From the NCBI GenBank assembly GCA_017506865.1, contig JAFCMP010000168.1, forward strand, positions 620,001 to 684,000: a DNA stretch of 64,000 nt. Reading direction: 5' to 3'. Of the stretch, positions 15,022-64,000 are shown piece after piece. The number at the start of each line of letters is the position of its first letter. Position 1 is the first letter of the stretch. The stretch is from Tribonema minus (lineage: Eukaryota; Sar; Xanthophyceae; Tribonematales; Tribonemataceae). The notes below the pieces were generated by a model that searched no databases, was not told the DNA's origin, and saw nothing but the letters and a program-made list of their open reading frames with translations. Position numbers and translations under genes: made by a program.

Positions 15022-15174
15022 GTAAGCTGCGCAATTGCAACTGTGTTCAGATGATGACAGTACTCTTGTTTTTCGTTGGGGCTCATGAGCGCAAGTTCGA
15101 AAGGTACCCGATTGTCTCATGCGATGCCACATGAGACTGACCTCAATTACCTTCACACCTGCTGATGCCCTCAG

Positions 15175-16889: not shown

Positions 16890-18917
16890 ATGCACACACA
16901 CTGCCAGCTTGGACTTGGAAAACTTGCAGAGGGCCACAACCAAATCAGGCTCGTATTCACTGGAATGCGGCAAATCTTTAGCAGTGTGGGGTTGGGTGTG
17001 AGAGGAACAAAAGGGAAAAAGAGGGGGGTTGATGTTGATGGGGGGCCGGGGTTGGGGGGTCGGGAAGAAAAGACGGAAACGATGAAAATTTCGGCTGAAA
17101 ATTGCTGCCGACGCCGCGGGCGTACTCACCGCGTGCAGCGCGAACTCAGGCTTAAGATTTGTGTGTGTCTGGTGTGCAGAGTCATCACCTCTGACGGTAA
17201 CAGTCGCAACGGGCACCCAATATCCGGCATCACCGCTAGGACAGATCTGGCGCCCGCCAAGATACACGCTGCCAACCGGAAGGTCAATATCCCGGGGCTG
17301 GACTGCCGCATGTGCGACAAGTTCATAGTGCGAGCAAATCCTCGCGCCCTGGACAAGAATTGCCCAGCGGCACACGCATGTGCACACCAGCGCACGCGCC
17401 ACACAGGGAAAGGGAAGCAATTTGCAGAACTGCATGTTCAGCTTTTCCTAGACCACCGACCAATATGCGGCGGCCTGGAGCAGGTCTGCGATGGGTGCGG
17501 CAACCTCTTCATCAGACGCACAGCAGCAAGCGCCACGACACCATCTGGTGATCTAGGGGCCCTGGACCAGTGCGACGTGTGGCGCTGCGCCGACTGCCTC
17601 GCAGGCCCGGTCGCCGCGACAGCATGCACACTGTCAGGCTGTGACCGTGCATCAGGCCATGATCACATTGCTGACATACACACCCGATCAACGACATGCG
17701 CGGCGGCAGCGGGTGGTGCAGCTGTTGGTGGGGGGAATAGCCTGAAGCCAACAGCCGCGCTGCTCGCCGCCGCTAGCAAATGTGGTCCCACACGCAAAAT
17801 CCTCGGATGCGAGCACCTGGGGGTGGACCCCAGGCAAGCCCATGCATCTACGTTGGACGGTGTGGCAGTTGCACCGCTGCCGAGACTGACCCGGAGCAGC
17901 ACAATGGGTGTGCTGCCTGGCGAAAGTCGTGCTAGCGATAGCGGCGCAACGATGTCAAGCAACGATCGTGTGCCCAGCACACCTGGCAGTGCAGCAGCTG
18001 CTGTCGCAGCGGGCGCTCAGTCTAGCGAATGCCCCAGGGACCCGACGGGATCTCACTGGCAAGGCTTGCTGGGGGCGGCTGGCGCACTCGCGCGCAGGGT
18101 ACGTGCACTGGCCCTTGCCCCCAATCGGGCACGCGTCACGGTGCTTTGCGCTTGGCCGACGGGTACCAAGCTTGAACCCTGCCGCACGTCACGCCGACTG
18201 CACGCGCCAGCAACACAGACCCTGCTGGGCCGGACTCCCTGCGCACCGCTGGTGAATCAGATGCATGACCTGACGGCCACGTTCAGCTTGCTCTCCCTCC
18301 GAGAAGAGGGTAACGACCTGGCAGCGGTGTTTGACCAACTCTCCCTTAGGGAACCGGTCGTTGCCAGGTCGCCTCGCCAGCCAGCCGGGAAACATGGCGA
18401 GTCAGACGTAACGCAGGCCGGTGATAACAGCACCCACGCAACAATGACCGAGACAGCATCTGTCACAGCTATGGTTGCCAGTGGAAAGCGCAGTCGACGC
18501 AGAGGTAAACACAGACGGCGGACGCAGGAGCGACAGGCCCAGTGCGACAATTCTCCTGCACCCCTAGGGCAGCTGGCACCAGCCACCACACCGCCAAGGG
18601 GCGGTGCCTCTGCCCCCTCAGCACCAATATCCGGGCCGGCGAAGGTCACCACCGCGACGGTGGCGACCCGGATACCCTCAACCGTGTGCCATACAGTCAC
18701 CGTGGAGGAGCAGCAGACGCCAAGACGCGCTGGCAAAAGCCACCAACTATGGTTTTTCCACTTGGCACACGGGCCTGCAGGCACTCCACAAACAGGCGCT
18801 TGGGGAAAACACAGCGACGCTAGCACGTGGTGGGGAGCTTCGCCCCGTGAGCAACGTGGGCAACGGCAACTGCCTGATTCATACAGCTCTACACGGCATA
18901 GGCAGCGTCGCAGTTGA
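16890..18917 (+). CDS. Non-LTR retrotransposon ORF1, Cys/His-rich protein
   Basis: This is a 675-codon frame. The first 90 or so codons overlap sequence that is also present in the non-coding short copy, so the true start may be later than the first ATG. Cys/His clusters occur near residues 135-170 (CRMCDKF... then NCPAAHACAHQRTRH) and 195-275 (CDGCGNLF, WRCADC, CTLSGCDRASGHDH). They look like zinc-binding nucleic-acid binding modules. The C-terminal half is Ala/Thr/Arg-rich and disordered. It overlaps ORF2 by 314 bases, with ORF2 in the +1 frame. The likely role is RNA binding in the element's RNP. Confidence 0.65.
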   Translation: MHTHCQLGLGKLAEGHNQIRLVFTGMRQIFSSVGLGVRGTKGKKRGVDVDGGPGLGGREEKTETMKISAENCCRRRGRTHRVQRELRLKICVCLVCRVITSDGNSRNGHPISGITARTDLAPAKIHAANRKVNIPGLDCRMCDKFIVRANPRALDKNCPAAHACAHQRTRHTGKGKQFAELHVQLFLDHRPICGGLEQVCDGCGNLFIRRTAASATTPSGDLGALDQCDVWRCADCLAGPVAATACTLSGCDRASGHDHIADIHTRSTTCAAAAGGAAVGGGNSLKPTAALLAAASKCGPTRKILGCEHLGVDPRQAHASTLDGVAVAPLPRLTRSSTMGVLPGESRASDSGATMSSNDRVPSTPGSAAAAVAAGAQSSECPRDPTGSHWQGLLGAAGALARRVRALALAPNRARVTVLCAWPTGTKLEPCRTSRRLHAPATQTLLGRTPCAPLVNQMHDLTATFSLLSLREEGNDLAAVFDQLSLREPVVARSPRQPAGKHGESDVTQAGDNSTHATMTETASVTAMVASGKRSRRRGKHRRRTQERQAQCDNSPAPLGQLAPATTPPRGGASAPSAPISGPAKVTTATVATRIPSTVCHTVTVEEQQTPRRAGKSHQLWFFHLAHGPAGTPQTGAWGKHSDASTWWGASPREQRGQRQLPDSYSSTRHRQRRS

Positions 18918-21900
18918 GCACGGACTGCCGGCCCCAGCGCTGGTGATTGCCATGCGAGAGGCACTGCTGGACGGGATGGTGGCATACGTCACGCAGGGGG
19001 CGGGCAAACAAGGGGCCAGCATGTCATCGATGCGTCAACTGACCGCGCATGCCGCAGCCCAACCTGCGTGTACACGTGAACAATTCGACACGTACGGGAC
19101 ACGCGCTCGCTGCCTCGCAATCGAGTACGGCACAAATGAAACGGATAGCAAGGACAGCGGGCACACGCTCCTGCTGCAACGCCTACAGGAAGAGGGCGTG
19201 TGGGGACGGCCCCTCGGTTTGTCTGTGTGGGCCATTGTTGCAGCGGTCTACGCGGTCTCGGTGACGGTGTGGCAGGCCAAGCCTCAGGCCACTGGCAGCA
19301 CGCAAAAATCAACAGGGCTGGTGCTGGCACAACTGATGGGGCTGCCAGCGGTATTCGCACCGGCGACTCCAGCTCAGCCTGACTGCCATCTGGATGTGCT
19401 GTGGACGCCGCCTGGGCTATATACAAATGTGGGACACTTTGAACTGCTTGTCGCCGCTGCGGCACCTCCGCCCTTGCCAACCACTATGACAGCGTCGGCG
19501 ACCACTCAAGCTGACAGCACCCACATCACGGCTCCTAGTCGGACACAGCCCCGTACTGCGCTGCAGTTGCCACAGCTGCCTGAGCCACTGAGGTGTCCAC
19601 TATGCACACTGGCATTTTGGCAGCTTGGTCAGAAAGAGGACAGCAAACAGCGAGGCAAACTGTCAGCTGCGAGCCGCATGGCACCGGTAGTGGCCCACTT
19701 CAACGGTGGTAGCTGCACGAGGTCGATGCTGAACCCTGAGGCGAGCACATCACACTGTCAGCAAAATCCGGCGGCAGCATATGCCAAGGGCATCCGGCAG
19801 CAGGTTGATCACGACCCATCCGGTGACCGTGCCCCTTCAGGCAGCAGTACCTGCAGCACTGGGGCACACCATGCCAAGCATGTGCAGGAGATGAGCACCA
19901 TGTATGGTTGCACGGCAGAAGACTTCCTACGGGCGGTAAGGAAGCTGAGTGCATGCACAGGTGCCTGCGGCCTGGTCCATATGTCAGCCAGCGCGGGGCA
20001 GAGGCAATGCGCGCTGACCTCGCCATGCCACACGTGTCGACGGAATGGAAGCGCCCCCACGCGCGCACGCCCGGCAGTACCCCCGGGCCAGTCCGAGGGC
20101 GGGGGTGCGGGTAGCGACGGCGCGGCCGCGGCGGCGGGGGCTGCCGCAGCGACACCTCCAAAACTACCGGCGGTGCCGGCTAGTGGCGCTGCCAACTCAA
20201 AGTCTAGCAAGAAACGCCCGGCGGCCACGGCAACCGGCGCACAACGCCGGCGCCGAACGGCAGCTGCTGCGGCACCGCCTAGCAGCACCGGCAGCCGCAC
20301 TCAGTCTGACAGCCTGAGGCTGCAGGACAGCAGCCCCCCCCACGGGACGGCCGTGGGATGGGCGGACATGGACGTGGACCCGCCGGACGATGCCGCGTCA
20401 CCGCCCCCCCCGACCACCACCACCAGTGGCAGGCCCTCAAAGCCCCAGGCACGAGCATCCCTGGCTTGGGACCTCTCGACGCCCTCGGTCGTCCACGCAC
20501 TTGACCAGACCAATGAGGCGGATCTACTGCTGCTGCGGTTCACCACGACTGCCAACCCCTTCCGCACTCAGCTGCAGTGCACCCAGTGGGCACGGCTAGT
20601 GGAGCACGCCACACGACTACTGGCGGACGCCACAGACAGTGCACGTGAGGCGGCACGGGTGCGCCTCCACCATGGTGCCGGGGCGTTTGCTCATCAGGTT
20701 TCTCAGACTCTAGTGCAGCGCGGCTACAGGCTGCTGCACCTGCTAGCAGCGATGGCCTTTGGTAGGCAACCGGAGGGAACCGGTATGCCGCCTGCGGCCC
20801 GGCTGGCAGCGTTGCTGTCTGGCGACTTCGCGGAGCTACTGAGAAAGACGCTGTCAGCAGCAGCGGCGCTGCGGGCCCCCAAACCAAACAACGCAGCTAT
20901 GGCGTCGGCACAAACGAACTTCGATGCCGACTGGACGGAGGCTGACTCCAGGCAGCAAACAGCATGCGCTGCCCTCTCAGGCAAGCGACGGGGGGTAGGC
21001 TTGGCTGCCGCACGACTAGAGGCGCGTGAAGCATGCGCCCCAGCAGACGAGGTCACGGCACAGGTGCTGGCAGCAAAGCACCCTGAAACTGGCACCCGCC
21101 GGCCGGGGGTAGTCGATACGCCAATGGAGCAAGTGCGCGGCCTGGTACGCGACGCCCGGCGGCACTGCTTACACAGCGCAGGGGTGGCAACGACCACCGG
21201 GCCAGCTGGCAGCGGCAGTCCTGTCTTCGAATCGGGTCAGGCACATGATCACAGCGATAGGCCTGAGGATGCTGCCAGCGCAGCCGGACGGCGCCTCGAG
21301 GTGGAGGCGGCAGACATACTGTCGACCTTGTCCGCAGCAGGGGCGGGGAAGGCAGGAGGGCTGGACGGCCTACGCTATGAACACCTCTTGATGGCCGCTG
21401 GGCCTGGTGCACCAGTGAAAGCAGCCACCCGCCCCGTGAGCAGTGCCTCGCCAGGACTAGCTGGTGATTCAGAATCAGATGTGATGGAACCGGCATTCGC
21501 CCATCACCTGGCCAAGGTGTTCACGACGCTGCTTGTTGAGCCCGAACTGCTGCCGGAGCAATCGCAACGGCTTCTCCCCGCCGCGGCCCTCTCAGGCATA
21601 GGACAGAAGCGGCGTCCGATCGCCTGCTCCAGTGTCTGGCGCAGACTCCTCGGGTCCACAGCGGCACGGAGTGTCAAGGGCAAGATATCGGGGCTGCTGG
21701 CCTCCATGTCGCAGTTTGGCGTAGGATACCGGTCTGGCGTCGAGCATGTGGCAGCGCGCGCGCGCGTGTGGCACGAGCTGTATGGCACCACTATCCAACT
21801 GGACTGTGAGAACGCATTTAACAGTGTGGATCGCGCCGCCATTGTGCGGGGGCTTATGCTCTTCTGTCCGGAGCTGCTCCCGCACTTTGAGTCCGTATAC

Positions 21901-24432
21901 TGTGGTGACACTGCCCCAGAGATGCGGGTGGAGGTGAACGGTGAAGCTCGCATTATCTGCTCCCACCTAGGGTGCCAGCAAGGGGACCCTCTAGGGCCGC
22001 TGTACTTTGCAGTGGCAGCGGCCTTCCTACTCTTCTACCCTGATGGAGTGAATGCGACGCCCGGCAGTATGCCGGCCTACGGCCACAGCACAGCGGAACC
22101 GCCAGCCCCGCACTGCGCTTTCCTGGATGACCTCAACGTGCTGCAAGCTGCCTACTTCGACGATGCAGCGGCCGCTGGGGTGGCAGAGGTGATCCGCCGG
22201 CTGGCGGCAGGGGGCCTACGCGTTCGACCAGACAAGTCGCTGGCCATCGCCATGCGCGGCACAGTGTTTGATGAAGCGGCCAGAGCACGCCTGCGCGCCC
22301 TTGACATACCGTTTGTGGACACCACCATGCCAGAATCCAGTCAGGGCTTTACGTCGGTCGGGGTACCGGTAGGGCACCCAGCCTATGTGCACGCTGCCAT
22401 GAGCAAGCATCTTGTCGACGCAGGGACATGGCGATTGTCGTGGCAGCTAGCTGGAATGGCGCGGCATCACCTACAGGCAGCACAGTTCATTCTACGCAGG
22501 TCACTGACGAAGCGCATGGGCTTCTTAGCTCGGGTCGTTGACACGGCTTTGAGTGAGACATGGTTGCACGCGTTTGACGGGTTCTGTGCATGGACGCTCG
22601 AACGCATGCTGCATCTGCACGGCTGCTCTACCGCGGCAGCCATGAAGTCACACCTGCTGGCCGCCTGCACTGCTGGTGACAATGAGGAAGCCAGCAGTGG
22701 CAGCGTGCTGGTATTGCCGCGCTTGGGCCCGCCAGAACTCACGGACATCGCAGTGCCACTGCGGGCGTCACGGTTGCCGGAGCGACGAGGCGGTCTGGGC
22801 ATGCCGCTTTTGGGGCTACTGGCACCAGCCGCATACACGGCCCAGGCATGCACAACACTGAGGCCGGCAATAATTCATGCCACTGTGGCAGCAGGGGCCC
22901 TGAGGCTCGGCACTGACGAACACGGCGCAGTCACCTGGTTCGCGCAGCACTCATGCGCAATACGCGAGGACCAGGGACTGCCGCCAATCATCGAGGCCGT
23001 GCGACGCTCTACGCGAGCGCTGACAGCTGATGGCGGCGAAAAATCACGCACAGCTGTGGCCGAGCAGCTCCCAGCATCGTTGCTACGGTGGGCAGCAGAT
23101 ACGACGGCCGCAGCGTCGACGCTCCCCACTGCGGTGCAAGCGATCTACGCCGCAACTACCGTCACGGAGACAGTGACCACTGAGCCAGCCCCACACACCC
23201 ACGGCATTGTGCCTGGCGCCGAGGCGGCCGCTGCGGCGGCGACCGTACCTGGCCCTCAAGCCGCTGCCGCGGCTGCCCCTTCCACGCCCGCTAAAACACA
23301 AACTAGCGCGGAAGAAAGCAGCTGCAGCGGCGGGCAGGAGGACGACGACGACGACTGGGAGGCCTATGCTGACGAGATCTGCAGGAAGGTAGTGCCCCGC
23401 CGCCGGCGCGGTCACTTCACGCACGGACTACAAGCCGGCCTTTCAAATGTTTTTCGACGTCAATACGAGGATTGCCTGGTGGAGGACCTAGAGGCTGCCT
23501 CGGCTGGTGCCGTGGGCAAGCCGACGCAGGCTGCACCTATTGGTGACTCGCGCGACACCAGCCGCCGCCGCCAACAGGCTAGCGCACGGGTCCTGGCGCA
23601 GCTGCGCAGCCAGCGTGCGTCCGGGGCAATGGCGTGGATGAGCGTGCCACCCACTGCCAATGACCGCCCGGGTGCGGCGCCCATGTCCAGTATGGCAGCA
23701 GCCACGATGATTTTGATTGCGATCTTCATAGACGGGTGGGGCATACAGGGCGAGGTATGCCCATGGCGGTGCAGTGATGTGAGCCCCACCTCCACGCATG
23801 CGATCAGCTGCCCCAGCCAGCACATACGGGGGCACAACGCGACACACACTGCCCAAAAGCGGTGCCTGCAGCGCATCTTGAGACAGCACCATGTCTCTAT
23901 TGTCCGCAATGAGGACGCTAGCGTCTTCAAGGTACCGGGGTATCGGGCGGACACAGTCATTGACCCAGGGTGTCTGCACTTTAGCAGTGCATACCGTAAC
24001 AAGGGAATAGTGCTAGACACAAGTGTGCGCGCGCCCACAGCGAGCTCGTACCTGACAGGCAAAACAAATGCCTCGAACACGGACGGCTATGCTGCTGGGG
24101 TGGGGGAGGACGCGAAGGTCAAGCACCACACCGGCACCTTGACGTCATCTTGGGCTTTTGTGCCATTCGTGCAGGAGTCGTACGGACGGCTGGGCAAGCA
24201 GACAAGCCTTTTTGTTAAGGAGTTGGCAATGCACTCAGCACTGTGCTCAGGGGGGGGGAAGGCAGATGTGTTACGCAAGGCCGGGTTAGCTAAGCGTCAG
24301 ATCCTCATTGAGCTGAGCATATCGCTGGCGCGGGAGTTGGCGGAGCGCGTCATGGCGTACACACGTGGAGCGCGAATGCTGGGCTGTGTTGCGGCGCCGG
24401 TATCCAAGCTCCTAGGGCACAGCGCAGACTAG
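18604..24432 (+). CDS. Non-LTR retrotransposon ORF2: OTU-like protease, RT, endonuclease
   Basis: 1942 codons. An OTU-type cysteine protease lies at about residues 80-285, with NGNCLIH (Cys90, His93) and GHFELL (His278). A Cys/His cluster follows (RCPLCTLAF near 335). RT lies at about 880-1260, with GIGQKRRPIACSSVWRR, LDCENAFNSVDR, GCQQGDPLGPLYFAVA and the catalytic FLDD at 1173-1176 (YxDD variant). Near 1719 a CPWRC...HAISC cluster and then PGYRADTVID and IVLDTSV match the CCHC plus RPD-x-D layout of the restriction-like endonuclease. The OTU part may process the polyprotein or remove ubiquitin; that is inference. The true translation start inside the ORF1 overlap is unknown. Confidence 0.8.
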   Translation: MPLPPQHQYPGRRRSPPRRWRPGYPQPCAIQSPWRSSRRQDALAKATNYGFSTWHTGLQALHKQALGENTATLARGGELRPVSNVGNGNCLIHTALHGIGSVAVEHGLPAPALVIAMREALLDGMVAYVTQGAGKQGASMSSMRQLTAHAAAQPACTREQFDTYGTRARCLAIEYGTNETDSKDSGHTLLLQRLQEEGVWGRPLGLSVWAIVAAVYAVSVTVWQAKPQATGSTQKSTGLVLAQLMGLPAVFAPATPAQPDCHLDVLWTPPGLYTNVGHFELLVAAAAPPPLPTTMTASATTQADSTHITAPSRTQPRTALQLPQLPEPLRCPLCTLAFWQLGQKEDSKQRGKLSAASRMAPVVAHFNGGSCTRSMLNPEASTSHCQQNPAAAYAKGIRQQVDHDPSGDRAPSGSSTCSTGAHHAKHVQEMSTMYGCTAEDFLRAVRKLSACTGACGLVHMSASAGQRQCALTSPCHTCRRNGSAPTRARPAVPPGQSEGGGAGSDGAAAAAGAAAATPPKLPAVPASGAANSKSSKKRPAATATGAQRRRRTAAAAAPPSSTGSRTQSDSLRLQDSSPPHGTAVGWADMDVDPPDDAASPPPPTTTTSGRPSKPQARASLAWDLSTPSVVHALDQTNEADLLLLRFTTTANPFRTQLQCTQWARLVEHATRLLADATDSAREAARVRLHHGAGAFAHQVSQTLVQRGYRLLHLLAAMAFGRQPEGTGMPPAARLAALLSGDFAELLRKTLSAAAALRAPKPNNAAMASAQTNFDADWTEADSRQQTACAALSGKRRGVGLAAARLEAREACAPADEVTAQVLAAKHPETGTRRPGVVDTPMEQVRGLVRDARRHCLHSAGVATTTGPAGSGSPVFESGQAHDHSDRPEDAASAAGRRLEVEAADILSTLSAAGAGKAGGLDGLRYEHLLMAAGPGAPVKAATRPVSSASPGLAGDSESDVMEPAFAHHLAKVFTTLLVEPELLPEQSQRLLPAAALSGIGQKRRPIACSSVWRRLLGSTAARSVKGKISGLLASMSQFGVGYRSGVEHVAARARVWHELYGTTIQLDCENAFNSVDRAAIVRGLMLFCPELLPHFESVYCGDTAPEMRVEVNGEARIICSHLGCQQGDPLGPLYFAVAAAFLLFYPDGVNATPGSMPAYGHSTAEPPAPHCAFLDDLNVLQAAYFDDAAAAGVAEVIRRLAAGGLRVRPDKSLAIAMRGTVFDEAARARLRALDIPFVDTTMPESSQGFTSVGVPVGHPAYVHAAMSKHLVDAGTWRLSWQLAGMARHHLQAAQFILRRSLTKRMGFLARVVDTALSETWLHAFDGFCAWTLERMLHLHGCSTAAAMKSHLLAACTAGDNEEASSGSVLVLPRLGPPELTDIAVPLRASRLPERRGGLGMPLLGLLAPAAYTAQACTTLRPAIIHATVAAGALRLGTDEHGAVTWFAQHSCAIREDQGLPPIIEAVRRSTRALTADGGEKSRTAVAEQLPASLLRWAADTTAAASTLPTAVQAIYAATTVTETVTTEPAPHTHGIVPGAEAAAAAATVPGPQAAAAAAPSTPAKTQTSAEESSCSGGQEDDDDDWEAYADEICRKVVPRRRRGHFTHGLQAGLSNVFRRQYEDCLVEDLEAASAGAVGKPTQAAPIGDSRDTSRRRQQASARVLAQLRSQRASGAMAWMSVPPTANDRPGAAPMSSMAAATMILIAIFIDGWGIQGEVCPWRCSDVSPTSTHAISCPSQHIRGHNATHTAQKRCLQRILRQHHVSIVRNEDASVFKVPGYRADTVIDPGCLHFSSAYRNKGIVLDTSVRAPTASSYLTGKTNASNTDGYAAGVGEDAKVKHHTGTLTSSWAFVPFVQESYGRLGKQTSLFVKELAMHSALCSGGGKADVLRKAGLAKRQILIELSISLARELAERVMAYTRGARMLGCVAAPVSKLLGHSAD

Positions 24433-52239: not shown

Positions 52240-52471
52240 GTAAGTTGCGTGAACCGTGTTTTGATACCAACACACTCATGTCTTGGCGCCCGTCCAGGCA
52301 GTGGGCAGTGCAGTGTTAGGCGCGACAACAAAACTGCATTTGTTTGAATGACACCGCGCATGTTGGACGCGCTTGTTGAGCGAACTTCATAGGCTGCGTG
52401 CCCGTTTCTCTTCCTTTTCTGAGGGTATGTTGCCGACCTTCAAACACCTCCACTTTTGCTGATGCCCTCAG

Positions 52472-53602
52472 ACATGTGGATGAAAATCTTCGAGTTCCTG
52501 CCACATGGGCTCTACCTCCAGGTTTCATCTGTGAGCACTGCATGGCGGGCGCTATATGCCAGGAGCATGCAGCTGAGGGGGCTGGCAGGTTGCGAGAAGC
52601 ACACCACCGCACTAGCCATGGCCGCATCCGCGCCCCTGATACAGTGGGCATTCACTAACGGCTGCGCGATGACCACGGGCGTACTGAGCCACGCCGCCGT
52701 GTGCGGCTCTCTAGAAGTGGTGCAATACGTATACGCAAACGCCAAACATGGGGACATCGACCCGTCTCAAGACTCATCTGTATGCATGGCCGCAGCAGAG
52801 CGCGGGGATTTAGAGATGTTGCAGTGGGCGCGCGCCCAGGGGTTTCACTGGGACGCATTCGCAACCGAGGCAGCGGGTCGCGGGGGGCACCTGGATGTGC
52901 TGCAGTGGGCGCACGCCAACGGGTGCCCCTCTGATTGGGCTACGTGTGCCGCGGCTGCCAGCGGAGGGCTCCTGGAGGTGCTGAGGTGGGCGCGCGACCC
53001 CGGGTGCCAGTGGGACGAGAGGACATGCAGTGCCGCCGCATGGCGCGGCCATCTGCACGTCCTCCAATACGCTCGACGCCACCGTGACGGCTGTTCGTGG
53101 GACAGCTGGACGTCCCACATGGCTGTCCGCCACGGTCATCTCCAGCTCCTTCAGTGGGCACATGCAAACGGTTGCCCCCTCGACACACTCGTATACTCGG
53201 GGGCGGCGCAAGGAGGCGACCTGCATGTGCTGCAGTGGCTGTATGATGTAGGCTGCCCCTGCGACGAAGGCGCGTGCGCATCTGCCGCAGAGGAGGGGCG
53301 TCTGGACATCCTGCAGTTGCTGCGGGCACGGGGCTGCCCGTGGGACGGGCAGGTTTGCGCGAAGGCGATCCGACGGGGTCACCTAGAGTTGCTGCAGTGG
53401 GCGCGTGCCAATGACTGCCCGGTGGGACGGAGAGAGGACCTTTCAGTTTCTAGGGTGGACCCACCTCAGAGTCTTCAACCCAGATCACCACACTGACGTC
53501 ATGTTGTCAGCAATTGAGTGGGCGCTGGCGAATGGCTGCCCATGCAGCGACAGGAGTAGAGGTCAGTACATGCAGCTGCGGTGCTTTGTAGGTGCTGCGT
53601 AG
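52472..53602 (+). pseudogene. F-box/ankyrin-like protein, copy 2, exon 2, frameshifted near end
   Basis: After GATGCCCTCAG it reads MWMKIFEFLPHGLYLQVSSV and STAWRALYARSM (F-box), then about nine ankyrin-like units such as GHLDVLQWAHANGCPSDW. At 53421-53422 there is one G more than in copy 1. The frame therefore leaves the repeat and stops at 53496 after QPRSPH, while the +1 frame continues with AIEWALANGCPCSDRSRGQY to 53602. The F-box and most repeats are intact, so a protein lacking about 50 C-terminal residues could still act as a substrate receptor of an SCF ligase. Confidence 0.7.
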
Positions 53603-54009: not shown

Positions 54010-54610
54010 GAAAATGTCAAAGTGGAGGGATTTGGTGGAGTTGTAGTGCAATCGCGCTGATATGCAACGCTGTGACATGCCAGGGGCTGGCCAGCTGGAC
54101 AGTTCGCCACTGCCCCTGCCTGGCACATGCAGGAGGCGCAAGCCCCACAGACCCCCTCCCGCCTCCCCGCTTTCCATGTTTGAAGGCCAACTCAGGCCAG
54201 GTCACTGCTCTTGTACACAACTACCGCTGCAAGTCCTAGCGCGTACACGAGCAGCCCGAACGAGCATGCTTGCAACGTTCAGTGCCACAGCAGAACAACA
54301 CAGTAGCGCATTGATATGTCATCATTGGGGCGCGCAGCGGGCCTGCCGCTGCCCCTGCGACGCCGCATCGCACCGCTGCTACGCCCCCCGCCGCGGCGCG
54401 TAAGAAGAAGGAAGGAGGGCGCGACTGCGCATCGATCACGTGCAGGAGCAGCAGTTGCAGTGCGCCACGCGCCTGAAGGATGGGGGGGCGTACGGAAGCA
54501 GGAGATTCAATTTGTCACAAAGTGCGGCATGAACACACGCACGCCGCGACACTTGCGCGCGCTCTCGCTGACGCCGGCCCCCATGGTTGCATCTGCTTTA
54601 AGTATGATAC
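54010..54610 (+). repeat. Dispersed repeat, copy B
   Basis: This is the second copy of the repeat at 48705-49350, in the same orientation, and it abuts the region that leads into the LTR retrotransposon. It lacks the long C runs of copy A. Confidence 0.65.
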
Positions 54611-55965
54611 GGCTTAAGGGCGGATCAGGTTCACAATGCCCCAGTTAGGGGTTCCAGTTAGACTTCAGTACTGAGTGGCAGTTGAAGCCTCAGTGTGGTG
54701 CCAGTTCCCAGTTGCATGTGAAAAGCCACACTGAGGCCTATAGCTTTTGCGCAGTATAAGAACCTCCCCTGCAAGCGGCAAGCCCGAGCCTTGCTGCGCC
54801 TGCCGTCGTCCAGCCCCAAGCCTTCCGTCTCTCAGCAACAGAATAAGATATCCGGTAAGCGCATCGCGTTTCCTTTCGCATAACATTTCATTTGAGTTCT
54901 CTGAAGCGTGTCTACTTGTTTTGCTCTTCCAGCTTGCTTGTTTGCATTCATGACAGCATCACAAGGTAAGCCGCTTCAATTTGGCACCCGAAGACAGTCC
55001 TTACCTCGTGCTAACCCCGCCCGCAAGGGCAGCAGCGTGGTGATCGCTGTTCAATGTATCACTGCTCGAATCGTGTCAAAGCCTTTCGAGGACCCAGATT
55101 ACGTAAAGCGATACGTAAAGAACAGCCGTGGGAAGCGAGTTAAACGTTGATCACGCTAGGTTCCTGCACTAGAATGCTTATGACGGGGCGGCGTAGTGGT
55201 GCACCGCTACGTCGTGACCCGCCCCCTTGATGTCAACGACGCAGTGCGTGCTGCACGGGTCTGAGCAGCAATGAATATGCAACTTCATTTAGCTGGCCTT
55301 ATTCTGCGGCTCATCTGTGGTTGATGAACGTGGTCACGTGGACCCATATAGGGCATCGAGGGTAGACCCGTGCGGTAGCGCGCTGTGTACACCAGCTTGC
55401 GCGCCGTACACTATCACGTCACGAACGCACCAGAGTCTCCCGGGAGAACGCGCGGAGATCCTTTAGGGGGGACACGTGATAGCTTGTGTATCAGAAGTCA
55501 CAGAAACGGTAGTGACTTGTCATAGACAGTGTTAAGTGGTTGCACTCGAGAAGTCTCGAGAATAAGCGCACAAAGGGGCATGCGCTGCCACTTTTCTGGC
55601 TGTAACGGTTGCCTATGACTAGAATAAAAACCCTACCGCATGCTCTTCCTTAGTAATTTGCTCTAAAGCTGATATGACTAGCTTTTTGCAAAGAAGGGGG
55701 AGAGGAGTCTAGCTTAAGAGCAAAGCGATGCAATTTTGCTTCATGATTGTACGGCCGCAATTGTGTTGCAGAATTGACAACGCGGTCGATCTGTACAACT
55801 GCTATGTCAAACTGGCTGGCTTGCAGTTCAGAGTGCCCTAGTAGCATCAGACCTCGTGCAGAGGCGTGCGGGGCATAGACGGCTCGTGCGCTGACAATTT
55901 AAAATCATGGTTTTGTCGTCGCACTCAGCTTCATGCGCGTGAATCGTGTGCAGGATACACCATAA
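54611..55965 (+). promoter_or_regulatory. Leader and probable 5' LTR region of the Ty3/gypsy element
   Basis: The stretch has a TATA-like CAGTATAAGAACC at 54755-54768, a polyadenylation-like AATAAA at 55622-55627 and a TGGCACCCGAAGACAG segment at 54981 that could be a primer-binding site. LTR ends cannot be fixed because the 3' LTR is outside the window. A short frame (54950-55150, MTASQGKPLQFGTRRQ... to SRGKRVKR) with a GTAAGC after its first codons is of unknown meaning. Confidence 0.35.
55181..55232. other. Palindrome in the element leader
   Basis: GGGGCGGCGTAGTGGTGCAC and GTGCACCGCTACGTCG with a CCGCCCC end form a near-perfect hairpin centred on GGTGCACC. It could structure the leader RNA. 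Confidence 0.55.
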
Positions 55966-58686
55966 ATGGTCAAGACTGACCATGGCTTTAAGAAGCCAAC
56001 GAGTGGGTCAAGCCGCAGCGGAGGTGTTAGTGGCGGTGCTAGGCCTGCTGGCAGCACTGCTGCTAAGAGCAACAAGGGCGGTCAGCGCTCCGCTACGCGC
56101 CCCGCACCAAGCTCGGGTGACAAGCCGTCACGCCCCCCTTCCCGGCCCGCGGCAGCGTCCGCACAACCCAGCCAGGTCGGTGCCAGTGCGCCCGACACGT
56201 TTGCCTCGGTACGGCCCACAGAATCAGTAGTCACTGGTGCCGCACCGCCTATTATACGTAATTTCGCTGAGTCCAGCGACGAGCCCAGCGGTGGCGGCTC
56301 AGAAGCCGAAGCCATGGTGGCAAGGCAGTTACGTTTGAGGCAGAAAAGAGAACAGCTTGCAGCAATGGGCATTATGCTTAGCGAAGCCCAGGTAGCAGAA
56401 GGCGAAGAAGCTTTTGCACGTGCAGCTGTTGAGAAAAAACTCGCACCAACGAAAAGCCCACGCAAGACACCGCGTGCAGCTGCAACAACCGCGCCAGTTG
56501 TGCCGGTAGCCGCGCCAGTTGTGCCGGCAGCGCCCGCGAAGTCTGCGGCGCCAGCACCTGCGAAGTCCACAGTGCCAGTTGCAGCACTGGTTGCGCCCGC
56601 GGTGGCCCCACCTAAGGTCGCGCGCAGTCAGCCGGCCAAGACGTCAGTTGCGCGCAGTGCACGGGCCCCAGTTGCGGCGCCTGAGGTAGCACCGGCGGCT
56701 CCGACGCCTCAGAGCTCCAAGCCATCAGCTAGGCTAGTGGCTCCCACATACTATACTGCACCAGCGAGGGCCCCTAAAGCCTCAGAATCGCTTGTGACGC
56801 AGCCGCGTCAGGTTGCAAGTGGTAAGGCGCGGCGTGTGCCAGTTGTGCCGCGTAGCGTGCCAGTCGTGCAAAGTGCGCCAGTTGTGCCACGTAGCGCGCC
56901 CGTCATACCGCAAACGCCAGTTGAGCAACAAGCGGCAGAGCGACGGAGGGCAGTTAGGCAACTGCTCGAGTCTTCTGAGTCATCTGGTGATGAGGGTGGT
57001 GTGCCCTTTGATCCTGAGGGCACAGATGAGGCTTATGACCAGTGGCGTGAGGGCATCGAAGCTCGCGTCGAGGCACATCAGCGAGCTGCCAAGGCCGCCA
57101 AAACGGCTGCAACGTTCGCCGAAATTCACGAGCGTGCCCTTTACGAACGCCTTGGCGAGCTCCAGCTTCGCGTCACCAGAGCTCCTAGTGAGAGCAAGAA
57201 CATGGTGAAAAACTCACTGCTGCCGATGGCGCGGACGTTCGCTGCGGAGCAGGCCGAAGAGGTGCGCCAGCATAATGTTGCACTTCTGGAAAAACGTGGT
57301 CATGACTTCAAAGCTAGCCAGTTCGGCGAGCTGCTGACCATAGGTGAACACCGTAAGCGGTCCAATAGTTGGCATCGCTTCGCCTTCGGCACAGGCGACG
57401 GTGAGGAGGCGGAACTCTGGCGAATGCTAAGGGAGTTCGAGAACACGCCTCTGGTCACCGAGGAGGCGCGCCTAGCTGCGGACACTTACCCGCGCGGCCT
57501 GGTGACGCACCCGTTCCTCAACACTGACGGGCACTCCGACACGTCGGACGACGACGCAGCCGGCGCAGCTGCGAGTCCACGTGAAGATGGCGCAGTGGCC
57601 GGCGTAGCCACCAGCGCATCGGCTCTAGGTGAGAGCATTAGGACTGCGGGGGCAGTAGAACCCTCGTACTCCTCGGTTGCCATGACGGCGCGGAAACCCA
57701 AAGTTGACTTGAGGGGTTTCGGCGGCACTGGCGTCGTCATTGTAACGCAAGTAGGCAGGCTTGAAGCTTCCATTAGAGCTTTTGAGCGTAGCTGCAACAC
57801 GCGTGGCGTGCCCGAGTCGGCCTACTCAGAAGCGCTGTTGCAGAGTCTGACCAAGAGTCAGTACGCTGATCTGACCAGCGCAGTCACCAATGAGCGCACG
57901 GGAATGCTAGAAACTCGTGCGTTTAGTGATTTGTCTTATGAGCAGATGGTGCAATGCCTTACGGCAGCGTACGATAGCACATCTGCCAGGCAAATAGCAC
58001 TTCAAAAGTATCATGAACTCACGCGTACCTCCGGTACCAGCCCCGAAGTGTGGGGCAGGGAGGTAGTTGCAGCCGCGCACGACGCCGGCTGCGCGGACAA
58101 CCAGCAAATTGTTCGTATGAAGTTCGTTCATGAACTGCCATTATGCTGCCGTCAAGAAGTAAACGGCATGTATGAGACCTGGGATCTAAAGAACACCGCT
58201 TTTCCCAAGGTCGTGGCAACTGCCCAGCAAAAGTGGCAGGCAGCGCCTATTGACGAGCGCGAGACTCGAAATGTTGTGTCTGCAATGGCCGCGGCACACA
58301 TCTCAACCCCCCCCTACTCTGACACAGGCAAGCGCCCTGCCAAGGATGGGTGGAGCGTGGTCAGTAACGACCATCGCTATAAAAAGAAGAATAAGCTTTC
58401 GGCTGTTCGCGCTGTGTTGGCGGGGCTGAGCGCTAACGAGCGTCGCCAGCTTGGAGTCAGCGACCGCGCGCCGCAGGGCAAGGCTGGCTCTACAGGCGGT
58501 AACGGCGGCGGCGGAGCCAACCCAAGAGCAACTTCAAGTGTCTTGGCTGCAGAGTGGACCAGGGAGACTGGGACGCACTCATGCGGCACAAGACTACCTG
58601 CCCTCAGTGCATTGCGCACCGAAAGAGGATGGCAGAAAAGCACCGCCAAGGTGAATCACACTTGCAGTTGTCTGCTGCCTTGGTAG
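55966..58686 (+). CDS. Ty3/gypsy-type retrotransposon Gag
   Basis: 906 codons from ATG 55966. The N-terminal third is disordered and rich in Pro, Ala and Val (VVPAAPAKSAAPAPAKS and VVPRSAPVIPQTP repeats). A helical middle part (about 350-500) contains EGIEARVEAHQRAAKAAKTA. A retrotransposon gag capsid-like part at about 580-740 includes FGGTGVVIVTQVGRLEASI, SLTKSQYADLTSAV and REVVAAAHDAGCADN. Gag forms the particle that packages element RNA. The frame runs past the point where the downstream frame opens (58503), giving about 180 bases of overlap with pol in the -1 frame. Confidence 0.75.
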   Translation: MVKTDHGFKKPTSGSSRSGGVSGGARPAGSTAAKSNKGGQRSATRPAPSSGDKPSRPPSRPAAASAQPSQVGASAPDTFASVRPTESVVTGAAPPIIRNFAESSDEPSGGGSEAEAMVARQLRLRQKREQLAAMGIMLSEAQVAEGEEAFARAAVEKKLAPTKSPRKTPRAAATTAPVVPVAAPVVPAAPAKSAAPAPAKSTVPVAALVAPAVAPPKVARSQPAKTSVARSARAPVAAPEVAPAAPTPQSSKPSARLVAPTYYTAPARAPKASESLVTQPRQVASGKARRVPVVPRSVPVVQSAPVVPRSAPVIPQTPVEQQAAERRRAVRQLLESSESSGDEGGVPFDPEGTDEAYDQWREGIEARVEAHQRAAKAAKTAATFAEIHERALYERLGELQLRVTRAPSESKNMVKNSLLPMARTFAAEQAEEVRQHNVALLEKRGHDFKASQFGELLTIGEHRKRSNSWHRFAFGTGDGEEAELWRMLREFENTPLVTEEARLAADTYPRGLVTHPFLNTDGHSDTSDDDAAGAAASPREDGAVAGVATSASALGESIRTAGAVEPSYSSVAMTARKPKVDLRGFGGTGVVIVTQVGRLEASIRAFERSCNTRGVPESAYSEALLQSLTKSQYADLTSAVTNERTGMLETRAFSDLSYEQMVQCLTAAYDSTSARQIALQKYHELTRTSGTSPEVWGREVVAAAHDAGCADNQQIVRMKFVHELPLCCRQEVNGMYETWDLKNTAFPKVVATAQQKWQAAPIDERETRNVVSAMAAAHISTPPYSDTGKRPAKDGWSVVSNDHRYKKKNKLSAVRAVLAGLSANERRQLGVSDRAPQGKAGSTGGNGGGGANPRATSSVLAAEWTRETGTHSCGTRLPALSALRTERGWQKSTAKVNHTCSCLLPW

Positions 58687-61600
58687 AAAGTGACTTGCCT
58701 ACTGCAAGTTCAGCACCAGCGATCAGTGAATTGCCTGGTGTGGTTACAGCAGATGCACGTTCAGCACGGGTAGCTGAGCATGCCACTGACGCTGTTTACG
58801 ATGTCTCTTTGCGCGCGCAGATGGCGGCAATTGAGGGTGGGCCAGAGCCACCACCCAGAGTTATCAAACACGCGTCTATCTGCTGTGGGGCGCTAGGGGG
58901 CGCCATAGCTGGGGGTAAGTTGACCTCCAGAGCAGGTTTTGTAACACGCACGGTGCTCGCAGTTGACAAAGACGTCAAGGCAATTGAGGCTCTGCATGAA
59001 GTACATCCAGAAGTGCCCACGCTCACTGCATGCATTACTGATGCGAAGGTTGTTGCACGTCTCGTTAACGAGAAACCTGACGTCACCACCATCTCGCCGC
59101 CTTGCACAGATTTTTCTGCGGAGGGCAAGAGGGTCGAGGGCGAAGCTGCCGAGTGCACGGTTCATGCCGCACGGCTCATCGTGCGAGCCAAGCTTCAAGT
59201 GGTGTTGTACGAGAATGTGCCCGGAGTGCTAGTGTCACGCGCGTTTGCACGCGCAGTGCGCATTCTTAAGGCTGCTGGTTACATGCTGTACATTGCCAAG
59301 TTAAAGGCTTCTGAGTTTGAAGTGCCTTGCAGGAGGCAGAGGGTGTACATTGTCATAGTACCAGCAGGGGTGGCCTCACGTGAGGCACTCCAGAGGTTTG
59401 GTGCGGTAATAAATACCAAGCGTTTACACAGCAGACCCACATCTGTTCGCTCTCGCTTGCGCTGCCCCGAACGCACATTCTTCTTGCAACCACGCAGTGC
59501 TCAGCACCCTGGTGTTTTGGATGCTGATGGCTTGTTGCCTAGCCCAGTGCGCAGACTGCCTGGTAGGCCCACTGCGAGTTATGTTGCACATGCAAAGGAC
59601 GCTGGCCCAGTGGCATCTGCCCGCTTGCTGTCGCTTGCGGAAATGGCGGTGCTCATGACGTATTATCATGAATTACCGGCGAGTGCATGCAGTAGTGATG
59701 TACGGCGTTACATTGCAGACTTGTTCATCCCAGAGATGGCATTTCACTTGTTCGTGGCAATTGAGGCCTCGGGCCTGTGCACACTGCCAGAACAACAGGT
59801 ACGTTTGCCGCGTAGGTCAGACTCTACGTTGAGGCATTCAGTTGACTGCCCGCCCCCATCTTGGTTGGCTGGTCAGAGTGGTTCGCTGGTGCAGGCCGCT
59901 ACCGCGGTACACGCAGCGCCCACGTCAAGTGCACACTGCTCAGCAGCAGTGGCGCGTAGCATACATGCAAAGGCGCATGATGCAGGGTATGCAGAGGTGC
60001 CCATAATTCCGATGCGCAGTGCATGGGAAGAGCCAGAGGTAGACTTGGCTGTGGTGCAGCCCGGCATGGCTGACATCGTGGAAGTCGATGACTCTGACTC
60101 AGGGTCTGACTCTGAGTGGGACTCACAGTCAGTTATGAGCGTTTGCAGTAGCGCAGACGACATGGACATTGACACAGAAATCAGTGCTCCACCCATTGCG
60201 GCCGCAGCGGCACGCAAGAAGCTCGGCGGCGGTACAGACCCGCGCCTTGCCCCAGGTGAGTTGAAGGCAGCGCTCAGGCGCGCTGGCCTTGATGCTCAGT
60301 CTCTAGGCATATTAGACCATGTGCCAGGTGTCAGCAAGTTAGACACAGCCACACCAGTGAGTGTGGCAGAGACAAGTAAGAATCTCACAGAAGAGATCAC
60401 AAAACCGAGGGAACCAGTCAAGTTACCTCATGTAGACCTTGCAGTAGGGTCCCCTGAGCCTAGCTCGGTAGAGCGCTCCAAGTCGGAGGCTCCAGTGGAG
60501 TACATACGCCCAGTAGCCGGTGTTGTACCTCCAGGGCAGATGTTTGTGTCCGCGTCGTTACGTGTACAAAGCAACTCTCAGACGCCCAAAGAACTCTATG
60601 TGCGCGCCATGGTAGACTGCGGTGCGACCGTAACCATCATGGGCAAGCGCATTGCAGACAAGCTCCCCAACAGCTATGTATGTACACCTCAGCAAGGTGA
60701 CTACACTGAGATCCTCTTGGCAGACGGCAAGACGTCGCTGCAGATCAGTGGTGTGGTCAATGCATGGCTGCGGTTTAAGAACAAGATGTTCTTGCACAAG
60801 TTCTATGTGGTGAACGCACCCATGGACGTACTCTTAGGTACGGATTTCTTTGCCCCGCATGGCTCAGTCATCTCGTATCACGGCGGTAGCCCAGCCTTCT
60901 TCCCAGGGGGACTAAAAGGTGTGGCCATACGCCCCATGCACGACAAGAATCGCGCAGACAACGCGAACGCGCGTGCGGCAGCACTAGCCAGTTGCAAGGG
61001 CAATGGCAGCGCTGAGAGCACTGAGGCACCAGACAAGCCTCAGCAGTGCTCAGCTAGGATGGCATATAACACTGTACTGGCACCATCGTCGGAGACGATT
61101 GTGGAACTCACGCTGCTACCAAAGCCAAAGCGCGTGCAGCCCTATGAGGCATTGCTCATACCAGAAGAGACAGTGACTACAGAAATGATGAGAGGCAAAG
61201 GTGTTAAGGCAAATATCACCGCTCTCACCGTAAATGCCAGCGGCACGATATACGCTACATTGAGCAACACTTCAATGTGCCCGGTTTACGTGCGCCGCAA
61301 CACGTATTGGGGAAAAGTGACTCCAATTAAGGCTGATGATCTGCTAGAAGTGCAGACAGCTACTCAGCAGGCTCTAGAAGCCAAACTGCTAGTAATAGCA
61401 GCCAAAAGGCACTCTGAAAATGCTAAGTTAGTGGCAGAATTAGCTGCTAGCATAGGCAAGACTGCCAAAGAGGTTGCACAAGAAGTGCAACGGCTGGCAG
61501 ACCTTAGCCAGCGCCACAATGACCAGCTAGAAAACTGCACGGATGCAGAGCTGGAGGAAATCCTTGTGAAAGATGGCAGGCTTGCGCCTCATTTGCAAGG

Positions 61601-64000
61601 AAGGGGGAAAGATGGGGTACTTTTAAAAACAAAAGCACTTGACATGCTAAAAAAGCACAGGAATGTCTTTGCTAAGGACCCTAAAAACCCTCGAGTCACT
61701 CAGCATTTTGAGATTGATGTTGACACTCAGACGGCCGAGCCGGTGGCGGACAAGGCACGCCATTGGACTTTCAAAGAACTTCAAGCCGAGTACATCATGA
61801 AACAGATTCAGATGATGGCAAAGTGCCAACAGATTGAGCCATCAGCTAGTGCATGGGCAAGCAACCCAGTACTAGTGGTTCAAGGCGACAAGATCCGCTT
61901 CTGCATAGACTTCAGGAAGTTGAATGCGGTCACGAAGCGTGATAGTCATGGCTTAGGCAACATGGATGACATGATGCGGGCTGTGCAAGGTGCGAGGATT
62001 TTATCTTCGTTAGATCTGGCAGCGGGTTACCATCAGATCCCGCTGGCCAAGACGGCTAAGGCCAAGACGGCCTTCAGAGCCCCAGACGGCTCGTTGTGGC
62101 ACTACAAGGTGGCGCCATTCGGGCTAGTGAACTTGCCAGCGCAGTTCACGAGATTGATGCACCAAGTGCTGGGAGGTGCCTTAGGCTCCCACGCGCTAGT
62201 GTACATAGATGACGTGTTGGTGTATGGCACGGACATTGAGGAGCACATCGAGCAGTTAGATGATGTTCTTGGCCGCATAGGCGCGGCGGGCATGAGTGTA
62301 TCTCGCCCAAAGTGTCAGCTGTTTCAAGCTGAAGTCAAGTTCCTAGGCCATATAGTTGGCGCCGCTGGAACAAGACCAGACCCTGACAAGGTCAAGGCCA
62401 TGCTTGACATGAGCCCCCCACTGAAAGGCGGGGTACCCGACAAGCAGTTGGTACAAGTGGTTATGGGAGTGATCAACTATTACAGGCGATATGTACCCAA
62501 CTTTGGGGCGATATCAGAGCCTATAGTGGCCTTGACCAAGAACAAAGCAGTCATGGTTTGGGGGTCTGCGCAGGAGCGGGCTTTCGAGCGGCTGAAGAGT
62601 GCCATGTGCGACAGTCGCATAGTGATGCACCCAGATTTCAGCTTGCCTTTCGTATTGTACACCGACGCCTCCGAGGAGTCCAAGACGGCGACGGCAGGTG
62701 TGCTTACACAGTTTAGACCTGTGAGTGAGGTCGAAAGGGCAACAGCGGGACAGCCATATGCTCACACGGGCAGGCGCCGCATAGCCGAAGGCGAGGAGGT
62801 CAGAGAAGTAGTCGTTGGCTACTTCAGCAAGCTGAACTCTGAACCCGACGCGAAGTTAGGAGCGACGGCAGTAGAGTGTCTGGCAGTAGTGCTGGCGCTC
62901 AACCACTTCAGGCCTTACATTTGGGGTAACCCTGTTACAGTGGTCACAGATGCCGCTGCGCTCAGGTGGCTGTTGACGTTGCAAGACTACAACGGCAAGC
63001 TACTAAGATGGGCCATGCGCATACAGGAGTATGACGTTACCATTCAGCACAGGCCTGGCAAAAGGAATGCCAATGCTGATGCCCCATCCAGGCTGCCACA
63101 GCAGGCAGAGTTAGATGCTGAGCGCTCTACGGAGCCAGCAGACGAACAGTGGCCAGATGCAGTCCCGAGCATGGACGCACCGCCGTCAGGTGTGCGCTTT
63201 GCGGACGAGGCCACGAGAACGCACAAGGTGGCCGACGTGAACAGCTGTCGTGGGTACACGGCGGATGCACGTTACGGGCCAGCGTTCAAGTTCAACGAGG
63301 CCGTCGCCATATCAGGCGCAGTGGCCGCCAGGTTAGCCGCTCTGACAGCTGTGGAGCTAGCACAGTTGTTGGACAGAAGGCTAGATGACTCCACAGTGGA
63401 GGAAGCTGAGGTTGATGAAGTTGAGATCAACACAGCGTACGCAGAGCCAGTCAATAAGTACACCGGCTCGTGGGAGCATTCCCAAGCGCAGCGACTCTTA
63501 AGGCAGATCGCATGCGACAGGCGACGCAGCATCAGCTCAAAGAGGGCCAAGTGCGGCGTCACCACGGCTCAACCGGCGGCAGACTCCTTGGAAGAAGGAG
63601 AAATTCCAAAGGTAGAAGCTGCTGCTGATGCAGATGAGGCAGACGAGCCACCGGATGGCGAAGCTGTTTTAGGCAAGCGCAAGAAGACGCTGCCAAGGCC
63701 AGAAGTAGTGCAGTTGCTGAAACGGGTGGCCGAGGGAGACTCGCCTGCCACGCCAGCAATGCTCAGCAGAGCCGCATTTCTTGAAGTTCAGAAAGCGGAC
63801 GGTTTCTGTCAAGCAGTGAGCAAGATGCTCATTGGGGGTGACATACCCGAAGGCGCGGAGCTAGCCGCTCACGTCTTAGCACAGAGAGAGCAGTATACCA
63901 TCGAGGAAGATGGCCTCTTAGTGCACAGTTCAACGAGCCACCTCAAGAGAGGTATGGTGTTGTTGCAGTGGGTCGTGCCAGTGGTGCTACGAACCCTAGT
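58503..64000 (+). CDS. Pol polyprotein with C5-methyltransferase domain (partial)
   Basis: Frame 0, first codon after TAA at 58500-58502, in the -1 frame relative to gag. Zinc-finger-like CLGC...CPQC at 58539-58610. Methyltransferase 58860-59775. An acidic Ser/Asp linker near 60080-60170. Protease with AMVDCGATVTIMG (DCGA at 60615) and VLLGTDFF. RT with IRFCIDFRKLNAV, SSLDLAAGYHQIPLAK and YIDD at 62202-62213. RNase H with LYTDASEESKTATAG and HRPGKRNANADAPSR. Near 63880 the segment EDGLLVHSS opens the integrase zinc-binding part. Pol is probably made by a -1 frameshift or from a spliced RNA; no clear slippery heptamer is seen. Confidence 0.85.
58860..59775 (+). CDS. Cytosine-C5 DNA methyltransferase domain inside pol
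   Basis: Motifs in the correct order: I, ASICCGALGGAIAGG (58872; like FxGxGG, binds S-adenosylmethionine); II, TVLAVDKDVKAIEALHEVHP; IV, ISPPCTDFS (59091; Cys at 59103 is the nucleophile); VI, YENVPGV (59208); VIII, VPCRRQRVYIV (59322; QxRxR variant). A segment at 59619-59765 (RLLSLAEMAVLMTYYHELP, then DVRRYIADLFIPEMAFHLF) resembles motifs IX and X, though the usual G-N-x-V-P is not kept. The enzyme family adds methyl to C5 of cytosine. The target-recognition part is short. It follows the Gag-type zinc finger and precedes the protease, so it may be released by cleavage. Confidence 0.85.

Follow-up and report, generated by a model that had tools for sequence, protein, structure and literature searches.

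Retrotransposons that carry DNA methyltransferases (DNMTs) have been in print since 2018, when long interspersed nuclear elements (LINEs) and DIRS elements of Symbiodinium and gypsy elements of Klebsormidium with DNMTs were described (PMC5890265, available text). The domains of SymbioDIRS-Dnmt3 methylate CG de novo in yeast according to the same text, and the words stramenopile and LlaJI are absent from its main text. The accessible part of PMC6338049 mentions, without details, Ty3/Gypsy and DIRS retrotransposons that encode DAM and DCM, in Stramenopiles among other groups, and that of PMC12344493 names streptophyte and dinoflagellate elements (LTR Copia and DIRS) that contain DNMT3. Among the literature titles and abstracts searched, mostly of non-subscription papers, none concerned a methyltransferase-bearing retrotransposon in an ochrophyte; LlaJI was not among the search terms. 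Here we analyse a window of 64,000 nucleotides (C168:620001-684000, in a 158-Mb assembly of 554 contigs) which contains most of a Ty3/gypsy-type long terminal repeat (LTR) retrotransposon with a C5-cytosine methyltransferase in its pol frame. The kind of element is already known, and the precedents in Symbiodinium and Klebsormidium which an earlier note on this DNA had named are correct (PMC5890265, available text). What is particular to this case is its probable host lineage, the type of its enzyme and its occurrence across several lineages of elements, which together make it a variant of its own; the mention of Stramenopile elements in PMC6338049, as far as its accessible part goes, makes the host lineage less novel.

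Within pol, the methyltransferase follows a zinc-finger-like segment and precedes the protease, and it is in frame with the protease, reverse transcriptase (RT), RNase H and integrase (PR-RT-RH-IN). The earlier note had placed the domain between a CX2C...CX2C segment and the protease and in one frame with protease, RT and RNase H; both statements hold, as Pfam finds DNA_methylase, RVT_1 and RT_RNaseH in that frame, together with a weak protease. The Pfam scan covered the first 1831 residues of the pol open reading frame (ORF), and the part past the window was scanned separately. The parts of the frame are given below.

58503..64000, forward strand: pol ORF, 1832 codons open to the window end; 2491 codons in the contig, with the stop at C168:685978
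58539..58610, forward strand: zinc-finger-like segment, CX2C-X12-H-X3-CX2C, read as a motif
58857..59777, forward strand: domain of the C5-cytosine methyltransferase, residues 119-425, its limits set from alignments
58872-58901, forward strand: methyltransferase motif I
58965-58988, forward strand: methyltransferase motif II, DKDVKAIE
59091-59117, forward strand: methyltransferase motif IV (Pro-Cys), ISPPCTDFS
59205-59228, forward strand: methyltransferase motif VI, LYENVPGV
59328-59354, forward strand: methyltransferase VIII-like motif, CRRQRVYIV
59628-59663 and 59721-59744, forward strand: methyltransferase IX/X-like motifs
60573..60872, forward strand: retropepsin-like protease, gag-asp_proteas E 1.3e-4 (below the curated cut-off), residues 700-783, with DCGATVT at 60615-60635
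61887..62357, forward strand: reverse transcriptase, RVT_1 E 1.8e-26, residues 1129-1285
62634..63032, forward strand: RNase H, RT_RNaseH E 7.3e-20, residues 1378-1510

The class of enzyme, which the earlier note had read from its motifs, was borne out by the profile PF00145 (DNA_methylase, E 2.7e-17, residues 136-284, 63.6 bits against a cut-off of 22). The AlphaFold model of the domain, built on a 13-row alignment, had a mean pLDDT of 89.7 and a pTM of 0.89. Foldseek placed Dnmt2 at the top of the PDB matches, with M.HaeIII, MET1 and M.HhaI in the first ten; the best 50 of 190 matches at E<=0.001 comprised Dnmt2, M.HaeIII, M.HhaI, MET1, ZMET2, DNMT1 and DIM2 besides a handful of further C5 enzymes, and none of these 50 was a DNMT3. 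A five-family profile against PDB sequences likewise gave DNMT2 as best match (5.6e-11) and also M.HhaI, ZMET2 and DNMT1 chains; no DNMT3 chain was found among its 53 matches at E<=1, in a library that does contain DNMT3 chains. The catalytic motifs and the modelled fold of this predicted C5-methyltransferase are intact. A chance ORF or misread domain is rejected by the Pfam match, the model, the fold matches and the PADLOC profile given next. For a Dnmt3 type, the profile search of PDB showed no sequence affinity.

The best PADLOC profile for the window methyltransferase was PDLC03270, a type II methyltransferase (E 8.5e-24, domain residues 27-306). The same profile was best for two methyltransferases of the locus L085 (MT837117.1; 5.5e-134 and 3e-128), which adjoin an AAA_5 protein and a RE_LlaJI protein (PF09563). 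It was also best for three of eight further element-borne proteins (L041, L039 and P0003) and ranked second to eighth for the other five, whose best profiles were PDLC03378 (L042, L016, L020) and PDLC03234 (L028, L027). In NCBIfam the window methyltransferase matched the dcm superfamily alone, below the cut-off. The genome's own Dnmt2 fragment (L014, C523:358815-359333), whose best PDB match is a tRNA C38 methyltransferase (5.6e-38), had PDLC03272 as best profile, and a free-standing enzyme had PDLC03718. Free-standing dcm-like methyltransferases were seen at L011-L013 (C223:937874, C223:702740, C181:39962); the best PADLOC match of L012 is an orphan methyltransferase.

The whole element measures 11,991 bp. 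Its 5' part occupies window positions 54605-64000; the integrase and the 3' LTR lie just beyond the window, and the 3' end was taken from the contiguous contig. The integrase gave H2C2 at 6.9e-17 and rve at 2.9e-5; H2C2, RT and RNase H stand above the Pfam curated cut-offs, and protease and rve below. The order PR-RT-RH-IN and the LTRs are those of a Ty3/gypsy-type element. The remaining features are as follows.

54605..54979, forward strand: 5' LTR, 375 bp, 2 mismatches in BLASTN of upstream against downstream sequence
54980..54997, forward strand: primer-binding-site-like stretch, TGG, directly 3' of the LTR, by reading; no matching tRNA was sought
55966..58686, forward strand: gag-like ORF, 906 codons, gag-like by position only
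C168:686221-686595, past the window: 3' LTR, 375 bp, BLASTN partner of the 5' LTR, 2 differences in 375

The LTR starts with TG, and there is a possible 4-5 bp target duplication (AGTA/AAGTA), its length varying with the position chosen for the LTR end (...TTCAA); a purine tract is present by reading. The gag-like ORF matched no Pfam family at E<=0.01, and in the window copy it overlaps pol in another phase. In the Pol tail, chromo- or Tudor-like sequence was seen only by eye, and Pfam shows neither.

The methyltransferase is not confined to this copy. A genome search with a 519-residue query (83 of 544 candidates scored, 84 matches listed) gave at least 28 matches covering nearly the whole query at >=95% identity, 27 of them without a stop in the match; further matches among those listed cluster near 76% and 49% identity. 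For RT, the best 100 of 638 candidates were scored, giving 101 rows of which 100 were used (one short second piece dropped). For the pairing with methyltransferase matches, the last two C180 rows of the 519-residue search and those rows of the genome's PF00145 search that repeat its copies were also left out. Within this set a scored methyltransferase lay <=6 kb upstream in 36 of the 40 RT matches at 98-100% identity, in 7 of 9 at 92-97%, in 2 of 19 at 70-73% and in 15 of 32 at 65-68%. Reading the copies without a scored methyltransferase in the two diverged bands (17/19 and 17/32) as domain-less elements was rejected, because the one copy read in each band (L041 and L042, respectively) carries the methyltransferase in the same place; the other 38 copies without a scored match (4, 2, 16 and 16 by band) were left unread. 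In both L041 and L042 a single frame takes in the gag-like sequence, the zinc finger, the methyltransferase and the protease, and diverged relatives of the element also carry the domain. The CX2C...H...C segment precedes the methyltransferase in all six window-type proteins scanned (window, L045, L041, L042, L039, L016); no such segment was seen in the available stretches of L028, L020 and L027. One RT match (G000:C311:6691-7935) falls within one uninterrupted frame of 6208 codons, which may represent elements in tandem or nested in each other.

The LTR search of the genome gave 40 matches (best 40 of 137 candidates scored). From 24 LTR loci, eight pairs were 98.4-100% identical, two of them without a difference; the window element is a young copy of a multi-copy family. 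The pol frame was open for at least 500 further codons upstream in four of eight loci, the window copy being among the eight, so single-frame copies exist.

Selection was assessed by the ratio of nonsynonymous to synonymous substitution rates (dN/dS, NG86) between the window copy and C190:861960-866520, whose RT is 93% identical and whose stops were skipped. The methyltransferase gave 0.137 (86 synonymous and 46 nonsynonymous changes), compared with 0.041 for RT-RNase H, 0.054 for the protease, 0.184 for the spacer and 0.366 for the zinc-finger/N-linker part. The methyltransferase is under purifying selection and is constrained less than RT. A recent chance insertion into one copy is rejected by the many copies carrying the domain and by this selection. 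The observation of the earlier note was right and understated, and neither outcome that it had named as refuting was found: the C5-methyltransferase profile did match, and the domain is present in other copies.

Synonymous divergence was uneven along the frame. In the window and C190 pair, dS of the methyltransferase was about half that of its neighbours (0.51 vs 0.92-1.09), while in the close copies L005-L008 it exceeded every neighbouring segment measured (0.09-0.12 vs 0.013-0.069); in L002-L004 it was not raised (0.013-0.031). Rows in which the frame was lost (C81 beyond residue 790; L002, 791-1116) were left out. From this unevenness, the methyltransferase domain seems to have been exchanged between copies.

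Other element kinds in the genome also carry methyltransferases. In the PF00145 search of the genome the best 123 of 378 candidates were scored and 30 loci were fetched. Loci L018-L022 and L015/L017/L023/L028 belong to other elements, in which the methyltransferase follows a protease-like motif by eye, and L024/L026/L027 represent a further element kind. A gypsy-like RT (L076, L077, L078) lies downstream of one copy of each of the three kinds; it was assigned to this type from inspection and from its 29-34% identity to the window RT. As the L076 and L077 RTs are 64% alike, they were counted as one lineage. By these sequence comparisons, at least two further gypsy-type lineages here appear to carry methyltransferases, one with the domain after the protease.

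The origin of the enzyme was examined by trees. In a 54-row tree the element-borne methyltransferases came together in a single clade (97/93), separate from the Dnmt2 and the dcm-like rows, and with L085 added (58 rows) both of its enzymes fell into the same group (97/94; bootstrap not settled). For a 39-row tree, 25 of the 58 rows were dropped and four of 18 further loci, human DNMT1 and human DNMT3A were added; here 14 element-borne rows (90/94, not starred) adjoin six bacterial-type rows (95/89), and DNMT3 stands elsewhere on a long branch. The genome's Dnmt2 (L014) was in a separate clade throughout (100/100 in the 54- and 58-row trees, 100/99 in the 39-row tree). A bacterial restriction-modification-type source is probably the origin, the best supported by these comparisons and not the sole possible one. 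The rival origin is capture of the host's own eukaryotic DNMT, the route inferred for Klebsormidium and Symbiodinium, followed by divergence past recognition. The approximately unbiased (AU) tests leave groupings with DNMT3A (p 0.131), DNMT1 (p 0.122) and DNMT2 (p 0.132) unrejected, but the best tree sets the element-borne rows beside the bacterial-type rows and the PDB profile search returned no DNMT3 chain, so we regard such a capture as the less probable origin, though one of some weight.

A phage origin was rejected, as the record labelled 'phage' that matched best is a scaffold from faeces, unverified, whose restriction-modification locus is of bacterial type; in that same search the L042 methyltransferase had no match at 1e-8. 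In viral_contigs the window query had no match, and a profile query gave six weak loci at 27-28%, of which two were placed in trees and neither joined the element-borne clade. The top fold match in the viral library was BFVD A0A8S5PVD1 ('Siphoviridae sp. ct0yh16'; E 1.4e-21, TM 0.77, next match 5.8e-14); it may be a nearer relative, or an element under a wrong label. A protein search with a polyprotein alignment at 1e-10 returned P0002 and P0003 again and nothing further.

The setting of these elements is a photosynthetic host, indicated by 92 chlorophyll-binding matches and 11 psaA-fragment matches on large contigs. For two psaA fragments the best PDB matches were 9ygv and 9m4f, one fragment agreeing at 49/53 residues with 9ygv, which is the photosystem I of Macrocystis pyrifera (PMC13219633, available text). 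By reading, the 18S gene also looks like that of an ochrophyte. According to the available text of PMC13076208, brown algae are reported without DNMT1, DNMT3 and DNMT5, and in Schizocladia, a brown-algal sister, DNMT3/DRM and DNMT5 are reported absent, DNMT1 is present and CG methylation is near 80%. An element-borne source would therefore bear on the gain and loss of methylation there. The earlier note had proposed a separate capture if this genome were another lineage. The psaA fragments, which point to an ochrophyte, and the lack of Dnmt3 affinity speak for this part of the proposal; against it, P0003, an ENA protein with RT and a related methyltransferase, groups with the window enzyme, so an older shared source is possible.

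The Pol polyprotein has probably acquired a C5-cytosine methyltransferase of bacterial restriction-modification type, which selection has retained. The best explanation of the whole, which we hold to be slightly better than evenly balanced, is a young Ty3/gypsy family whose selected methyltransferase of this type would mark complementary DNA (cDNA) before or at integration. The methyltransferase would be packaged with Gag-Pol in the virus-like particle, where the adjoining zinc finger may help to hold nucleic acid. Its substrate would be the double-stranded cDNA of the element, marked mainly at CpG-containing sites no later than integration, so that each new copy would arrive pre-marked and could thereby be hidden from sensing of unmethylated foreign DNA and/or quickly silenced, with less harm to the host. 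The de novo CG methylation by SymbioDIRS-Dnmt3 domains in yeast is a precedent.

Mutation patterns give a weak hint of CpG methylation, with the element or a host enzyme as source. Across 19 domain copies, transitions were found at 14/108 CpG sites and 19/402 other C/G sites (p 0.004); at synonymous sites alone the values were 8/35 and 12/137 (p 0.034), and against GpC sites 14/108 and 2/152 (p 0.0001). LTR pairs gave 4/274 CpG transitions vs 9/2851 positions (p 0.022; a few edge bases included). The observed/expected ratio of CpG was 0.94 in the window and 0.84 in the element, vs 1.39 and 1.36 for GpC, and TG and CA were raised.

Several points weigh against the cDNA-marking explanation. The CpG signal is small and rests on few changes in related, non-independent copies; compared with the C/G sites outside both CpG and GpC it is not significant (14/108 vs 17/250, p 0.066; synonymous p 0.17), and a host enzyme could be its source. 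In yeast, no methylation was obtained with the gypsy enzyme of Klebsormidium, a result its authors call inconclusive (PMC5890265, available text), and the active precedent enzyme, SymbioDIRS-Dnmt3, belongs to another family. As gag and pol are in different phases in the window copy, this copy may be inactive.

The enzyme might instead act on the chromosome, released as a free enzyme that sets de novo CG marks genome-wide or at integration sites, which the host maintains. The matches to this methyltransferase region, at least 84 besides the other families, would suit such a role, as would the shortage of CpG relative to GpC, which both the window and the element show alongside raised TG and CA, and the high CG methylation of Schizocladia despite the reported absence of DNMT3/DRM and DNMT5 (PMC13076208, available text). 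The CpG depletion is slight, however, and the search for a host DNMT1 (RFD) and a CDCA7-type zinc finger was uninformative, with no match and the controls silent too; we consider chromosome marking unlikely. If true, the elements would be a main source of de novo methylation. Somewhat more unlikely again is a domain that serves nucleic-acid binding or methylates RNA in the manner of Dnmt2, for example the primer tRNA or genomic RNA, instead of DNA. Dnmt2 is the top fold match and DNMT2 the best PDB sequence match of the profile, and RNA methylation was raised by the authors of PMC5890265 (available text) for LINE-borne enzymes; the family match to bacterial DNA methyltransferases (PDLC03270) and the separate clade and different best profile (PDLC03272) of the genome's Dnmt2 argue against it. 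The enzyme could also be retained for defence against viruses or competitors, its marks setting self apart from invading DNA, as proposed in print for retrotransposon accessory domains (PMC6338049, accessible part). The closest bacterial relatives found here do come from a restriction-modification locus, but Pfam names no restriction partner in the scanned parts of the element, and this role seems very improbable.

A wider reading joins several of these threads. A LlaJI-type methyltransferase would have entered Ty3/gypsy elements of an ochrophyte on the brown-algal side and spread over at least three deeply diverged lineages and two Pol positions, and would now be the main de novo CG source where host DNMT3/5 are missing. 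We put this forward as a doubtful proposal, less probable than chromosome marking or an RNA role. What the data do offer is an extension of methyltransferase-bearing retrotransposons to a host with the look of an ochrophyte, and the suggestion that a retrotransposon-borne enzyme need not be a host Dnmt3, a bacterial restriction-modification type being possible. With several gypsy-type lineages, two domain positions, young copies and selection in one genome, it is a good test bed for why a retrotransposon would methylate DNA.

Elsewhere in the window, a long ORF at 18568-24432 (forward strand) with a weak RVT_1 match (6.1e-7) resembles a retrotransposon of the non-LTR kind; by eye, part of it is OTU-like. 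Two similar ORFs at 15141-15779 and 52423-53496 (forward strand) appear by eye to combine an F-box with ankyrin-like repeats. Scanning the window for Rfam families and tRNAs gave no match.

Among known systems, KnitGypsy-Dnmt3 of Klebsormidium nitens is also a gypsy-type LTR element with a C5-methyltransferase in an intronless Pol ORF and many copies, and purifying selection with Ka/Ks <0.2 is reported for it (PMC5890265, available text). Its enzyme is placed with Dnmt3, whereas the window enzyme is without Dnmt3 affinity, the two being compared by description only; its repeats are described as DIRS-like in arrangement, whereas the window element has ordinary terminal LTRs. The window element resembles KnitGypsy-Dnmt3 in build and, set apart by that description, is not classed as a member. 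SymbioDIRS-Dnmt3 and SymbioLINE-Dnmt of Symbiodinium likewise combine methyltransferase and RT in one element (in one ORF for DIRS) and occur in many copies, but they are tyrosine-recombinase DIRS or LINE elements, in contrast with a Ty3/gypsy type with integrase, and CG methylation in yeast was shown for the DIRS enzymes whereas the activity of the window enzyme is predicted (PMC5890265, available text). P0003 (1358 aa) shares 34% identity over 185 residues of the methyltransferase and PDLC03270 as best profile (3.6e-36), but its RT is about 25% identical over 181 residues and it has a long branch in the trees. The database fragments P0002 and P0004-P0006 are 35-62% identical to the window methyltransferase, P0002 sharing the downstream spacer too; they differ in being 267-654 residues long with no RT domain listed. 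The LlaJI-type methyltransferases (L085 and its relatives L086-L103) are the nearest non-element rows in the 39-row tree and have the same best profile, PDLC03270; they differ from the window enzyme in being free-standing, with 26% identity over 83% of the query.

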